Positions 3,905-11,878 of a stretch of DNA of 20,906 nucleotides are shown piece by piece. Location of the stretch: the IMG/VR virus record IMGVR_UViG_3300044700_000788, positions 1-20,906 of that record. One strand, 5' to 3'. The stretch's first letter is position 1; every line of letters starts with the position of its first letter. Below the pieces are notes generated by a model that was given only the letters and a program-made list of their open reading frames with translations, ran no database searches and was not told the DNA's origin. Origin of the DNA: a virus. Both the position numbers and the translations under genes were made by a program.

Positions 3905-4393
3905 ATGACTCCTCAACAAGTAGCCAATTTTTTCCTACATATACCTAAAGAAATTATTGAAAACAAAAGAGCAAAAAGCCCTGATTTCATAGAAGCACTA
4001 TTACTCGAAGGTGTATGGCTAGAAGAAGTTTTTATAGTACCTAAAAAGAAAATGGAGGTGTTGATGCATCGATACAGGCCTTCCGACAAGCCGAACAGCA
4101 ATCAACAGACAATTACAGAGTCCCAGGCTGAACCAGCATTAGACAGCTCAATATTGCGACCAATTAAAAATTTTGCAGGATCGATGAAAAATTGGGTATC
4201 TAACGGCATGCCTTTGGCTAGTAAAGAAGTTTACGAAACTCGTAAAAGTATTTGCAATAGTTGCCCGTTCTGGGATAAAGACGGAAACATGGGTATGGGT
4301 AAATGCAAGCAATGTGGATGCACTGCAGCCAAGCTATCTTTAGCCACAGAAAAATGCCCTGTAGGTAAATGGGGTCCTGTAACAAAAGACTAG
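3905..4393 (+). CDS. Small six-cysteine, zinc-binding-like phage protein
   Basis: This protein has 162 residues. The N-terminal half is plain and slightly basic. The C-terminal part carries a compact cysteine motif, CNSCPFWD (Cys117, Cys120), then GKCKQCGC (Cys134, Cys137, Cys139), then EKCPVGKWG (Cys151). The spacing resembles a zinc knuckle or ribbon. From memory, a C-x2-C-PFW...C-x2-C-x-C...KCP-GKW module is common in hypothetical proteins of marine tailed phages, but its function is not known. The gene lies 10 bases after the structural gene and probably belongs to its operon. Its TAG stop (4391-4393) overlaps the TAG stop of the opposing gene through the palindrome CTAG, so the two genes converge with no spacer. 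Confidence 0.8.
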   Translation: MTPQQVANFFLHIPKEIIENKRAKSPDFIEALLLEGVWLEEVFIVPKKKMEVLMHRYRPSDKPNSNQQTITESQAEPALDSSILRPIKNFAGSMKNWVSNGMPLASKEVYETRKSICNSCPFWDKDGNMGMGKCKQCGCTAAKLSLATEKCPVGKWGPVTKD

Positions 4394-5082
4394 TGTTCAG
4401 GAATATCTATAACCGAAGAAAGAAACTCATGATGATCAATCCATACAGGCTTGCCAGTAGAATTATCAATTACCTGTCTGTAAAGTTTTCCATCAGTACC
4501 TTTTCTGGTATTATGAACGAAAAAATTTACTACCCCTATGGTCGTTGCCTCTACTGTTTGAATAGGGTCAAGTAAACCAAATTGAGATTCATTTACCTCT
4601 CTAGAAGATTCTGGAATAGCCTCAGTAGAACCGATACCTCCCTCACCCATTTTGGTAACTTTATGTGCAAGCATATACTGCTCCATCGGATTTACACCCT
4701 CAATATTTTGACTTAATGCGTTACCAACAAAAACAGATTTTATCTGAGGAGAAAAGAAGCCTGCATGCAACCATGACAGGTTTCTTTTTTGTCTTAGCTT
4801 AGACTTTGCCTTGAATTGAATCTTACCCGCATCATGCTCAATATGTTCTCTAATATGATCTTCAGGCCCCATAAACTTGGAAAAGATGACGTTATCACGA
4901 TCATCAGGCTCAACCTTCCTACCAAACACATCCAGGAGCTTCTTGGTGGTATCTAGCATTATTTGAGGCGAAACATATGAAGATGAGCTTCCTAGAGTCC
5001 TTCCCATCACAGATGCGTCCAAACGCATGTTCCTAAAATATTCCTTAAGTTTAGTTATTTTTTCTTGTTTAGAACTAGGCAT
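4390..5082 (-). CDS. RNA polymerase beta subunit, middle fragment (split phage RNAP)
   Basis: This 230-residue protein aligns without gaps to the rifampicin-region segment of bacterial RpoB. LSQNIEGVNPMEQYMLAHK (residues 123-141) matches E. coli LSQFMDQNNPLSEITHKRR (511-529), GEGGI follows where RpoB has GPGGL, and DPIQTVEATTIGVVN (172-186) matches CPIETPEGPNIGLIN. Upstream, EPDDRDNVIFSKFMG (58-72) corresponds to VDDIDHLGNRRIRSVG. Downstream, YRQVIDNSTGKPVW (201-214) corresponds to the YRKV...VTD strand. The protein therefore covers roughly residues 400-605 of E. coli beta (Rpb2 domain 3 and the fork region). It stops before the segment that begins DDANRALMGSNMQRQA. No other polymerase piece lies in the window. 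Phages of the phiKZ/AR9 type encode beta and beta' in separate pieces, and this would be a similar arrangement with an unusually short piece. The gene stands alone on the minus strand between plus-strand genes. Confidence 0.83.
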   Translation of the reverse strand: MPSSKQEKITKLKEYFRNMRLDASVMGRTLGSSSSYVSPQIMLDTTKKLLDVFGRKVEPDDRDNVIFSKFMGPEDHIREHIEHDAGKIQFKAKSKLRQKRNLSWLHAGFFSPQIKSVFVGNALSQNIEGVNPMEQYMLAHKVTKMGEGGIGSTEAIPESSREVNESQFGLLDPIQTVEATTIGVVNFFVHNTRKGTDGKLYRQVIDNSTGKPVWIDHHEFLSSVIDIPEH

Positions 5083-8411: not shown

Positions 8412-8528
8412 CCATAAAACCTCTTGATTATTCTGACTGCAGAAGATCATATATAGGAATGCGTATTGCTACAAAATCAGGAGACAAAGGAACAACTGGC
8501 ACTTATCAAAAACAACCCTAACAAACAT

Positions 8529-8951
8529 ATGAGCAAAACAATTAAAACTACCAAAGCCCCGAAAGAGCAGATCAACGACGACATTGAACTTAAGATTGCA
8601 GGATTCAATATGACTATCGAAGAAATGAAGAAATGGCTGGAAGATATTCAGAAGTTTACATATGAAGATCATAAAGCTGCTGAAGCTAAAAATAAGCCAT
8701 CTTGCGCTGCAGCGTTGTATGAGGATTGGGTAGCCAAGAGTGAAGAAGAAAACGTGGCTGCCTCTCAGAGAAATGTCACATTTGTTCCTGGAAAAAATAC
8801 CGAAGATACCAAAGTATTTGTATCGACAAGTCTTGGTAAAATGGTAGAAATTAAGAATGTCGTGAGAGCCAAGCTTGACTATAACCCAGAGTTGGGCTTT
8901 CCTATTCTACAGCTGGAGATTATGAATCCAGATATCAAAGCAGTTGTTTAG
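8529..8951 (+). CDS. Hypothetical acidic/helical protein
   Basis: This is a 140-residue protein counted from ATG 8529 (MSKTIKTTKAPKEQ...). A longer frame begins at TTG 8466, but the ATG is preferred because it follows the A/C-rich leader typical of this window and the extra residues look like leader sequence. The middle is helical and charged (MTIEEMKKWLEDIQKFTYEDHKAAEAK), and the C-terminal part has beta-type stretches. I do not recognise the family. It diverges from the 8366 gene across a 162-base control region and is followed by its own strong plus-strand terminator, so it is probably a single-gene unit. Confidence 0.72.
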   Translation: MSKTIKTTKAPKEQINDDIELKIAGFNMTIEEMKKWLEDIQKFTYEDHKAAEAKNKPSCAAALYEDWVAKSEEENVAASQRNVTFVPGKNTEDTKVFVSTSLGKMVEIKNVVRAKLDYNPELGFPILQLEIMNPDIKAVV

Positions 8952-8978
8952 TATTAGTTAGTCGTTGCGAACGAGACG

Positions 8979-9014
8979 GCTGGTCTGGAGAAATCCAGGC
9001 CAGCTTTCCTTTTT
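8979..9014 (+). terminator. Intrinsic terminator of the 8529-8951 gene
   Basis: GCTGGTCTGGA (8979-8989) pairs with TCCAGGCCAGC (8994-9004) over 11 bases, with one U-G pair on the plus-strand RNA. The loop is GAAA, and TTTCCTTTTT follows. The wobble and the T-rich tail both assign it to plus-strand transcription. Confidence 0.88.
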
Positions 9015-9016
9015 GT

Positions 9017-9067
9017 CTGATAGCTAAAAAAGAGCGACAGTAATAGGTACTGCCCGATGCGCTCTTT
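9017..9067 (-). terminator. Minus-strand terminator with AGCTATCAG tail
   Basis: AAAGAGCG (9029-9036) pairs with CGCTCTTT (9060-9067), and the space between holds an inner CAGTA/TACTG stem. On minus the stem is followed by TTTTTT and then AGCTATCAG (complement of 9017-9025). It lies just downstream of the 9081-9683 gene and back to back with the plus-strand terminator. Confidence 0.8.
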
Positions 9068-9069
9068 AA

Positions 9070-9095
9070 CAGCAGACAGCTTACGCTGCCTGCTG
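9070..9095 (-). other. RNA hairpin with the stop codon in a GTAA tetraloop
   Basis: On the minus strand CAGCAGGCAGC, loop GTAA and GCTGTCTGCTG form an 11-pair stem with one G-U pair. The TAA in the loop is the stop codon of the 9081-9683 gene. Confidence 0.75.
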
Positions 9096-9683
9096 CCTGA
9101 ATGACAATGGCCACATTTCTGCGGCCATTGTCATCACCACTTCTCTTGGCCACCGATCCAGGGCCTTTCTGACCCTGGTTGCAGGTCTCTCGGGACCTCT
9201 GTTAAGGAAGCCCTTGATTGCATTCATTTGCCTGCATCTCTCGATGCAGGCAAATGTGGCTTTTTTGTTGATTTTAAGGCCGGCTTTCGCCAGCCTTTGT
9301 GCAACAATGTTAACTCTCTCTTCGGGAGAAAAGTGGCCACCGAAGGCCAACTGCGACTCTTCAGTCCCAGTGTCTAGGTTTAAAACTTCCCCCGCAGTGG
9401 AGAATTCTATTGCTACAGCATGACCGCTACAGGACGATATTGTTATTGAGGTCTTCGTCCTTCTGACCTCCGACCCATAACCGCACCTGTATGAGTAGCC
9501 GCCGTCTTTTGTGGGCCTAAGGGTGGAATAATCCCAGTCCCAATATATTGAGCTGGAGTTACTCACCATATCGGCCAACTGGCCGATTCCACCCCATCCA
9601 ACAGCTTGCTTTAGTTGGATTATCAAGGCTTCGTCTTGTGATAGCGCTGCTTCTGCAATACTGTATTCTTCTTTTGTGAACAT
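9081..9683 (-). CDS. Hypothetical protein encoded by a stem-loop-dense gene
   Basis: This protein has 200 residues, starts at ATG 9683 and ends at TAA 9081-9083. The N-terminal third is helical (EEYSIAEAALSQDEALIIQLK), the middle looks beta-rich, and the C-terminal part is arginine-rich and basic (RGPERPATRVRKALDRWPREV). I do not recognise the family. The coding DNA is exceptional: at least ten perfect or near-perfect inverted repeats follow one another at roughly 30-60 base intervals. One has 13-base arms (9226-9255) and one has 11-base arms (9102-9133). The stop codon sits in the loop of another (9070-9095). Wobble positions and GNRA loops appear when the minus-strand RNA is folded, so the structure probably belongs to this gene's messenger RNA. 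No Shine-Dalgarno sequence is visible. Confidence 0.65.
   Translation of the reverse strand: MFTKEEYSIAEAALSQDEALIIQLKQAVGWGGIGQLADMVSNSSSIYWDWDYSTLRPTKDGGYSYRCGYGSEVRRTKTSITISSCSGHAVAIEFSTAGEVLNLDTGTEESQLAFGGHFSPEERVNIVAQRLAKAGLKINKKATFACIERCRQMNAIKGFLNRGPERPATRVRKALDRWPREVVMTMAAEMWPLSFRQQAA
9226..9255 (-). repeat. Perfect 13-base inverted repeat with GAGA loop
   Basis: ATTTGCCTGCATC (9226-9238) and GATGCAGGCAAAT (9243-9255) are exact complements around a 4-base centre. On minus-strand RNA the loop is GAGA, a GNRA tetraloop. It lies inside the 9081-9683 coding sequence. Confidence 0.85.
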
Positions 9684-9776
9684 AACTTTAAAATACTCTA
9701 TGCCTCCAGGTTAGGTTTACCATCGCATGGAGGCTGCGAAGGTAATTAGGATAAATGCCTTTCGGCAGATTACAGG
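9684..9776 (-). other. Intergenic leader with 7-base inverted repeat
   Basis: GCCTCCA (9702-9708) pairs with TGGAGGC (9728-9734) around 19 bases. A smaller TGCC-GAAA-GGCA hairpin on the minus strand (around 9757-9768) follows the stop of the 9777-9980 gene and lacks a T-tract. The larger repeat lies 20-50 bases upstream of the 9683 start and could be a leader structure or a weak terminator. Confidence 0.4.
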
Positions 9777-9980
9777 TTAGATGTAGTAGGCGTATCGCCA
9801 TACTACGAAATTTTCTTCAAAGTCTAACTTCAAAGTTTCCGGGTCTATGAAATGTGTGCAGGTATCTCTGATACCCTGCTCAAGCGATTCGGCTATTATC
9901 CGATGCGCTCTGTTTTCTTCCAAGAACAAGCTCCGGTCTTCATCTATGTATCTCCAACCGACGTCGTTTATATTCGCCAT
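9777..9980 (-). CDS. Small hypothetical protein
   Basis: This protein has 67 residues and is acidic and aromatic (MANINDVGWRYIDEDRSLFLEENR...). It starts at ATG 9980 after an A-run (AACAAAAAAAAC), with no Shine-Dalgarno sequence. I do not recognise the family. It is upstream of the 9081-9683 gene on the same strand. Two strong hairpins lie inside it: GTAGTAGGCG/CGCCATACTAC (9783-9806) and GCAGGTATC/GATACCCTGC (9858-9879), each with a single bulged base. Overlapping plus-strand frames are shorter and have no promoter context. Confidence 0.55.
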   Translation of the reverse strand: MANINDVGWRYIDEDRSLFLEENRAHRIIAESLEQGIRDTCTHFIDPETLKLDFEENFVVWRYAYYI

Positions 9981-10127: not shown

Positions 10128-10979
10128 ATGCTATTCATTATACTTGTCGCTTTTAGTGCTTTGTTTGTGGCCGGGTGCGCGGCCTTCTTCAGCATCAAGG
10201 GGCTTATTGTTCTGTTCTCTGGAAGCAGCCTGGCAATCGGGATTATGGCCAGCAGCCTTGAGATAGGTAAGCTGGTCGCAGCCAGTTTCCTGCATACCTA
10301 TTGGAGGCATATCAGCTTCCTGCTGAAGACATATCTTTGTGTTGCTGTACTCACTCTTATGGGAGTCACTAGCCTGGGTATCTTCGGCTTCCTCACAGGA
10401 GCCTATCAGGTGCATTCTGCTACTGTAGGTACTTTTGAAAATAAAATTGAAGCGTTAACCACAGAAAAGACAGCTATCGAAACAGGTGTAGCTGAACATA
10501 GCGAGCGAATCAAAAGTCTCACCACGCTGAGACAAGATCAGGAGCAGCGAGTCAAAGATGCTGGCAACTATAAAGCTCCTAGAGAGCAGGCATACAAGGC
10601 TATCGAAGAAGCCAATCTTGAGATCAAACAGAAAGAAGAATCTTTGACTAAAGACAGAGAAAGAATCATTGAAATTGAGAAGGATATATCTGAATTGAAG
10701 ATAGGCATGAACACCACAACGGATGTAGGCTCGTTTAAGTTTATCGCAGCTGCCACAGGATCTACTGTAGATGAAGCAGTGAGATATTTCATATTTGCTC
10801 TAATCTTTGTGTTTGATCCTCTCGCAGTAACTCTTGTATTAGCTTGGAATAAGCTATTGGAAGCTAGAAGAGAGAAGAAAGAACAGGAAGAAGCTGCATA
10901 CATTGCCAGCCTTAAACCCGTCGAATTCGAAGGGATTAACGCGCAGGACGAAAATGCCTCCAGCTTAAAAAAAAAGTAA
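10128..10979 (+). CDS. Membrane protein with cytosolic or periplasmic coiled coil (zero-frame product)
   Basis: This protein has 283 residues. Hydrophobic segments lie at about 2-22, 25-47, 66-92 and 220-240. Between the third and fourth, residues 100-195 are a highly charged heptad-like stretch that should form a long coiled coil. A conserved-looking patch, SLEIGKLVAASFLHTYW (43-59), recalls a membrane protein of unknown function that I remember from marine T4-like phages. The tail after the last segment is charged (EARREKKEQEEAAYIAS). The zero frame ends with AAA AAG TAA, that is, the stop follows directly on an A AAA AAG slippery heptamer, so this may be the short form of a frameshifted pair. 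It has no Shine-Dalgarno sequence and is preceded by a promoter with a palindrome. A role in the host envelope is likely but unproven. Confidence 0.8.
   Translation: MLFIILVAFSALFVAGCAAFFSIKGLIVLFSGSSLAIGIMASSLEIGKLVAASFLHTYWRHISFLLKTYLCVAVLTLMGVTSLGIFGFLTGAYQVHSATVGTFENKIEALTTEKTAIETGVAEHSERIKSLTTLRQDQEQRVKDAGNYKAPREQAYKAIEEANLEIKQKEESLTKDRERIIEIEKDISELKIGMNTTTDVGSFKFIAAATGSTVDEAVRYFIFALIFVFDPLAVTLVLAWNKLLEARREKKEQEEAAYIASLKPVEFEGINAQDENASSLKKK
10970..10976 (+). other. Candidate -1 ribosomal frameshift site (A AAA AAG)
   Basis: The heptamer A AAA AAG is in the correct register relative to the membrane-protein frame (codons AAA 10971-10973 and AAG 10974-10976). The zero-frame stop TAA follows at 10977-10979. 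It is the same heptamer as in E. coli dnaX. It lies in a run of nine A residues, so a sequencing error or polymerase slippage is also possible. Confidence 0.65.
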
Positions 10980-11266: not shown

Positions 11267-11276
11267 CTATCTGTTC
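11257..11276. other. Hairpin spanning the stop codons of two convergent genes
   Basis: GAACAG (11257-11262) pairs with CTGTTC (11271-11276). The 8-base loop CTAGCTAT contains most of the plus-strand TAG (11264-11266) and the minus-strand stop (complement of 11267-11269). It has no T-tract, so it is a weak terminator at best. Confidence 0.5.
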
Positions 11277-11878
11277 CTCACATCTTCCAGCCCCAGCAGC
11301 TCATCTAGAACAGACTCCCATGCTAGCTGCTCTGTTTTAGCGCTAAGCTTATATTCTTTTAGCTTACCTTTAAGATAGTTGGCTTCACTCACGGTAGTAA
11401 CCCTACTCATCAGCTGGTAGGCAAGATGGTCAATAGCATCAACATCACTGTCTGTTGCTTCCAGAGCATATTTGATTAGTTTGCCTCTAGCTTGTATAAC
11501 CGTAGAATAATCTCCTGTGTATTCTTCTCCGGCTATATAACACAACTGCCTGTTGAGTTGCTCTCTACTCAGTGGCATCTTTTTAAAGTGCTTATAATTA
11601 TGAGACATCAGAGTTTTTCTAATGTCTTCTATGCTCATATGATCCCAACCTGGAGTCCACTTATCTCTAGGTCTAGCAAGCACCCACTCTACAGCCATGT
11701 TATAGCCGTTATCGTTATATACGCAATACCAGTCTACCTCATGAGGTAAAGGTACAACACCCAATACATCCAAATATATTCTGCGTATAATATACGACTC
11801 ATCTTCATGTTGTCCTGGGAATATATCACTCAGACAAATAAAAGCAAATATCGCAAGTATGCACAGATCTCTTCTCAT
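11267..11878 (-). CDS. Secreted-looking protein with a DUF1549-like motif
   Basis: This protein has 203 residues. The N-terminus (RRDLCILAIFAFICLSDIF) looks like a signal peptide or membrane anchor. Residues 27-70 read IIRRIYLDVLGVVPLPHEVD... AVEWVLARP. This pattern, IRRxYLDxxGxxPxPxEVD, resembles the start of DUF1549 (PSCyt2), known mainly from large planctomycete proteins. The rest is helical and charged, without cytochrome-type CxxCH motifs. It starts in a 1-base overlap with the stop of the 33-residue peptide upstream (TGATG) and so is probably translated with PhoH and that peptide. It converges on the frameshift gene with no spacer. Its function is unknown, and the family match is by eye only. 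Confidence 0.7.
   Translation of the reverse strand: MRRDLCILAIFAFICLSDIFPGQHEDESYIIRRIYLDVLGVVPLPHEVDWYCVYNDNGYNMAVEWVLARPRDKWTPGWDHMSIEDIRKTLMSHNYKHFKKMPLSREQLNRQLCYIAGEEYTGDYSTVIQARGKLIKYALEATDSDVDAIDHLAYQLMSRVTTVSEANYLKGKLKEYKLSAKTEQLAWESVLDELLGLEDVRNR

Follow-up and report, generated by a model that had tools for sequence, protein, structure and literature searches.

The locus described here raises the question of why a protein gene of a phage should consist of hairpins following closely one after another, and whether these have been favoured in the messenger RNA or left behind by mutation of the DNA. The window, i.e. the whole stretch of DNA analysed, is the 20.9-kb record of a phage that has not been cultured. 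Among its relatives are records measuring 204 and 198 kb, which carry tRNAs and tmRNA; a tRNA search across the 20.9-kb window gave none. The hairpin-rich gene, designated here gene Y (9081-9683, minus strand), specifies an orphan protein of 200 amino acids and is recognized by its open frame and by an orthologue in the related phage L012. The explanation we favour, tentatively and at a little under an even chance, is that gene Y, which occupies a swap slot, encodes an accessory protein, and that its mRNA is loaded with hairpins since structure itself, and not given stems, has been favoured.

Elsewhere in the window, the product of 11267-11878 (minus strand) bears a weak likeness to DUF1549/PSCyt2 (E 6e-5), which misses the curated cut-off; the domain is known from Planctomycetes, and this likeness is a possible hint at the host. 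The product of 4390-5082 (minus strand) matches RNA polymerase Rpb2 domain 3 and may be one portion of a phage RNA polymerase beta subunit that is split.

Gene Y and its hairpins

The orthologue of gene Y lies at 9392-9994 of L012 and likewise encodes 200 amino acids, with 63% identity at the amino acid level and 66% at the DNA level. The frame is open over its full length in both phages and the substitutions (dN 0.33, dS 1.0, dN/dS about 0.33) indicate that gene Y encodes a protein under purifying selection, for which AlphaFold (AF2) gives a moderately confident model (pLDDT 72.5, pTM 0.63). The suggestion, made in an earlier note on this DNA, that an RNA function might exist instead of the protein is contradicted by both the dN/dS ratio and the model. 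No match to the protein was obtained in Pfam or PHROGs at normal cut-offs, nor in a fold search with the predicted structure. Protein and alignment scans of viral contigs and GTDB genomes, together with tblastn of annotated phages, yielded as further copies only L012 and L001, the latter an identical fragment, and the orthologue comparisons given below rest on the single orthologue of L012.

The eleven inverted repeats listed in the earlier note can all be read at the positions claimed or 1-2 bases off them, and three of the eleven (9225-9256, 9101-9134 and 9070-9095) were recovered by a repeat finder. All are described here on the minus strand. The last hairpin of the gene (9070-9095), CAGCAGGCAGC-GTAA-GCTGTCTGCTG, seen in the sequence, by the repeat finder and in the fold, has 11-nt arms matching at 91% and holds the stop codon TAA of gene Y inside its GTAA loop; it is present in L012 with a difference at one outer base. 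The neighbouring coding hairpin (9101-9134), found by the repeat finder and in the MFE fold, has 15-16 bp (15-nt arms, 93%) and a GAAA loop, which in L012 is GAGA, with 14/16 pairs still possible. A coding hairpin of 8 bp with a 5-nt loop (9158-9178; sequence and MFE fold) and a short one of 5 bp, AGGTC/GACCT (9183-9198; read in the sequence, an alternative MFE fold competing with it), separate these from the hairpin at 9225-9256, in which both the repeat finder and the MFE fold give 14 bp with 100% match and a 4-nt GAGA loop; 12/14 of its pairs are possible in L012, where 5 have changed, including one double change from T-A to C-G. The 9-bp coding hairpin with a GAAA loop at 9276-9297 (MFE fold) keeps 9/9 pairs in L012 with one change, C-G to U-G. 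Two adjoining coding hairpins (9334-9349 and 9350-9371, within 9332-9371) were supported by the sequence and the MFE fold. Towards the 5′ end of the gene the MFE fold contains a 6-bp coding hairpin, GAGGTC/GACCTC (9448-9470), and two helices overlooked in the earlier note, of 12 bp (9388-9437) and 19 bp (9522-9567), and the block at 9570-9620 comprises two more coding hairpins, 9570-9587 and 9596-9620 (sequence and MFE fold). The hairpin at 9448-9470 is not conserved (1/6 pairs in L012), and neither are those at 9570-9587 and 9596-9620 (3/7 pairs each).

Strict hairpins, with a stem of at least 7, number 8 in gene Y as compared with 2.0 expected, a count (8 in 603 nt) that makes the gene stand out less than its folding energy does. 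The GNRA character ascribed to the minus-strand loops was borne out in 3/4 tetraloops of the strict hairpins, besides the GTAA at the stop codon, versus 0/4 on the plus strand. Rfam searches at gathering and at relaxed thresholds gave no relevant RNA family match.

Folding excess and the exchange slot

In folding energy native gene Y lies far below shuffles preserving dinucleotides, codons or codons together with dinucleotides, in agreement with the reading of the earlier note. The 120-nt minus-strand folding windows at 9061 and 9181 reach z -7.9 and -7.8 against dinucleotide shuffles, the lowest of 694 window/strand pairs, and for the 3′ 431 nt (8970-9400, minus strand) z is -10.5, with 0/100 shuffles as stable. 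With synonymous-codon shuffles, which leave the protein and codon usage unchanged, the whole gene has a native value of -218.8 and the best of 100 shuffles one of -178.6 (z -7.0); when dinucleotides are also held close, z is -6.2 and the best of 100 is -182.6. The excess goes beyond codon, amino-acid and dinucleotide needs and amounts to about -10 kcal per 100 nt, which tops all 389 genes of two relatives of about 200 kb (extreme -8.6); among 203 control genes from T4, phiKZ, P-SSM2, SPO1 and Mel-JY01 the most extreme value is -6.2 kcal per 100 nt. A slight excess relative to codon-shuffled versions is common to all phages (control means -1.0 to -1.8, mean of the gene Y lineage -1.8). The lineage average is unremarkable, and it is the outlier tail of genes that is special. 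Among the genes of these two large relatives, an excess beyond -6 is found in 6/63 of those lacking a counterpart in the other record versus 6/326 of the remainder (Fisher p 0.006). Gene Y is overall GC-richer than the genome, its GC3 being 0.65 at paired and 0.35 at unpaired sites. Because the latter is the genome value, a foreign high-GC origin is unlikely as the main cause.

Another accessory region of this kind is seen in the 204-kb relative G001, where a run of neighbouring genes right after the tRNA genes (L022 9184-13988) includes several that are extremely hairpin-rich; at L022 9184-9861 the codon-shuffle z is about -8 to -13. The same record carries hairpins of 10-15 bp (L022 10985-11015 and 11607-11633, L024 17341-17377) in which a loop of 7 nt reproduces that of the tRNA T arm (GG-TTCRANN-CC) and of which some precede T runs. 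G001 has three of these T-loop-like hairpins; G003 has none, and neither do the 50-kb stretches searched in five control phages.

The site of gene Y is, to judge from comparison with relatives, an exchange slot between conserved edges, one formed by a conserved gene at 8466-8951 (plus strand) and the other by a conserved coiled-coil membrane-type gene at 10128-10979 (plus strand). In related phages the slot holds gene Y (the window, L012), an unrelated gene X (L003, L014) or other short genes (L006, L007, L011), and it is empty in L008, L009, L010, L013, L015 and L016. A 26-residue remnant of the gene X C-terminus in the same slot (L006 6275-6352, L007 6935-7012) points to recombination. A gene of 67 amino acids (9777-9980, minus strand) within the leader region of the window is absent in L012 and L003 and represents a small insertion.

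Ahead of the start codon lies a 33-nt leader hairpin sequence (9702-9734, minus strand). Four phages, represented by the window, L012, L048 and G001, have it with 100% identity, preceding either Y or X. It may form a GCCTCCA/TGGAGGC stem in which GGAGG stands some 19 nt ahead of the ATG, and such a leader with stem-embedded GGAGG is perhaps a control element. Sequence and comparison reveal a terminator-like hairpin, GAGCG...CGCTC followed by a T run (9025-9064, minus strand), the hairpin at 9032-9064 being also found 3′ of other genes in L007 and L011; a terminator-like hairpin of the convergent plus-strand gene (8979-9014, plus strand) is conserved in both L003 and L012. Every one of the four slot genes with at least 140 amino acids is hairpin-rich, so the excess recurs in the orthologue and in gene X (Y -10.1 and -8.0, X -13.3 and -7.1 kcal per 100 nt), with codon-shuffle z of -5.5 for the L012 orthologue and -7.8 and -4.8 for gene X. 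A third copy of gene X, in contig L048, has a weaker excess (-4.6 kcal per 100 nt). Structure prediction for gene X gave a poor model.

Origin of the hairpins

Both orthologues of gene Y are extreme in folding despite few common pairs: of about 181 pairs, their own folds share 46, and 40 of these lie in the better-conserved 3′ third. Given the codon changes, 118/174 pairs of the window structure are kept in L012 versus 119.2 expected (p 0.69; 5′ part p 0.98, 3′ part p 0.53), and the stems are not maintained by compensating changes beyond chance in this orthologue. Most stems occupy other positions in the single relative known, which speaks against a single fixed RNA machine, and the decoy or scaffold RNA put forward earlier is not supported. 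Selection on the mRNA, the broader claim of the earlier note, is plausible in a diffuse form, given the excess over shuffles, the hairpin-rich orthologue and unrelated slot gene, and GC3 raised only in stems; for a specific structure the second refuting condition of that note tells against it, the stems being kept in L012 no more than by chance. For gene X an excess of kept pairs was obtained (p 0.003 and 0.01) and one helix is changed on both sides between relatives, which is rated only suggestive because the null ignores transition bias. The RNR orthologue test, first strongly positive with a null ignoring that bias, was not relied on; a pairing-aware substitution test gave no excess over unpaired sites for the sense strand (OR 0.98) and a lower value for the antisense control (0.69).

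Excess structure combined with hairpin turnover fits diffuse selection on the mRNA, for stability, and the main rival is mutation that makes inverted repeats. The hairpins would then be by-products of template switching from one imperfect inverted repeat to another (quasi-palindrome correction) in phage replication or slot recombination, which would create and mend such repeats with no RNA benefit; this we consider possible rather than probable. Coding inverted repeats are known to arise by template switching (PMC8604942; coding palindromes are discussed in PMC6649704), the gene Y site is a recombination slot, the arms at 9225-9256 are perfect over 14 bp, and the stems turn over between orthologues without compensation, their third positions being not extra conserved. 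The signal is strong and broadly symmetric on both strands, as inverted repeats would produce; the antisense strand of gene Y is itself strongly structured (z -5.6), so that most pairing in the gene is plain Watson-Crick inverted repeat. Against template switching, the sense-strand wobbles are for the most part G-U, the GNRA loops are confined to that strand, perfect inverted repeats are scarce, gene Y having one and the L012 orthologue none, and neighbouring conserved genes are less affected. Across the four slot genes, the extra inverted repeats contain on the sense strand 15 G-T wobbles versus 5.5 expected and 6 A-C versus 5.0, a contrast that is weak for the slot genes alone (p about 0.06, our own binomial estimate); lineage-wide the values are 1.36 for G-T and 1.15 for A-C. 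The larger sense excess (-10.1 versus -7.7 kcal per 100 nt for antisense), the G-T wobbles and the sense-only GNRA loops modestly favour sense RNA, and because these signs are modest template switching remains a serious rival. Diffuse selection has against it that the antisense is nearly as structured, that gene Y has no pairing-preserving substitution bias, and that one orthologue is at hand.

It is rather unlikely that the 3′ third with the stop-codon and terminator hairpins constitutes a specific functional RNA (a 3′-derived small RNA, a protein-binding scaffold or a decoy) overlapping the coding end. The fold of this part is stable (z -10.5, as given above), the common pairs are concentrated there, synonymous divergence between Y and L012 is 2.8 over codons 1-50 and has dropped to 0.26 by codons 176-200, and the sequence beyond the stop codon is almost identical in L012. 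Opposed to a specific RNA are the chance-level pairing of the 3′ part, the equal conservation of its third positions in stems (26/36) and loops (13/18), the amino acids, which are also most conserved at this end, and the lack of an Rfam match. The same terminator occurs after other genes, and for this reason a recently recombined common 3′ end, through recombination at the slot 3′ edge, explains the gradient better than a protected RNA.

It is highly improbable that cassette exchange is guided by DNA hairpins or cruciforms serving as signals for recombination or retrohoming, in the manner of the GRNA-loop hairpin in diversity-generating retroelements (DGRs): the slot does have conserved edges and several gene Y hairpins look like the 7-10 bp stem, GRNA-loop hairpins of DGR targets (PMC3240598), but they occur throughout the gene and not at its edge, and no reverse transcriptase was detected (PF00078 in 0/5 records, some of them fragments: the window, two relatives of about 200 kb, L012 and L014), on which ground identity of gene Y as a DGR target was rejected. 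An ordinary effect of chance or base composition, met with in scanning many genes, deserves next to no credence, for all the mild codon-shuffle excess in all phages (means about -1 to -1.8) and the GC-richness of gene Y, as the gene is more extreme than about 590 others, survives codon plus dinucleotide shuffles, has its GC excess confined to stems and shares its excess with the orthologue and gene X.

If structure density is what has been selected, gene Y would be a slot gene held between a fixed leader and fixed terminators in a lineage of roughly 200-kb phages, and the benefit to its sense RNA would most likely be a longer life in the face of host or phage-induced endonucleases, or alternatively less exposed single-stranded RNA. 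The stop-codon and terminator hairpins would close the 3′ end of the transcript, and recent common ancestry, or recombination at the slot 3′ edge, would be a further reason for the common 3′ third. A bolder version, which we regard as unlikely, is that any slot occupant has its codons altered so that its mRNA, behind the invariant leader, is dense with hairpins and either resists nucleases or hides targets, structure density being selected without fixed structures, possibly as counter-defence against RNA-cutting host systems. With selection on structure density the slot would offer a natural experiment on mRNA structure in infection, with unrelated genes behind one leader and before one terminator; with a mutational origin gene Y would show recombination slots seeding inverted repeats in genes. 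Gene Y separates strong excess mRNA structure, which is clear, from conserved RNA elements, for which the test failed, two things usually confused.

Comparison with known systems

The bypass in T4 gene 60 also involves a stem-loop inside a phage coding gene; gene Y differs in having no non-coding gap and an open, conserved frame. Genome-scale ordered RNA structure (GORS) of RNA viruses is a pervasive excess of mRNA structure without fixed elements. Gene Y has the same kind of excess without fixed elements, in a dsDNA phage and in some genes only: a GORS-like genome-wide spread was not found in the lineage (mean z -1.8 versus -1.0 to -1.8 in the controls), and lineage-wide ordered structure was rejected as a general trait. 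With the hairpins of DGR targets (PMC3240598) gene Y shares GC-rich stems of 7-10 bp and GRNA loops near the stop codon, and it is unlike them in its gene-wide hairpins and in that reverse transcriptase was not found in the five records searched. Among inverted repeats homogenised by template switching (PMC8604942), as in gene Y, short repeats alter the coding sequence; gene Y was compared with one distant orthologue, in which clustered copied changes are not demonstrable. The coding palindromes of nematomorph mitochondria, for which the function is unclear and template switching or repeat conversion has been proposed (PMC6649704), are perfect and up to 284 bp long, as opposed to the arms of 5-16 bp, short loops and many wobbles of a phage slot gene, and they resemble gene Y in that many inverted repeats lie in expressed protein genes and are gained or lost between relatives.
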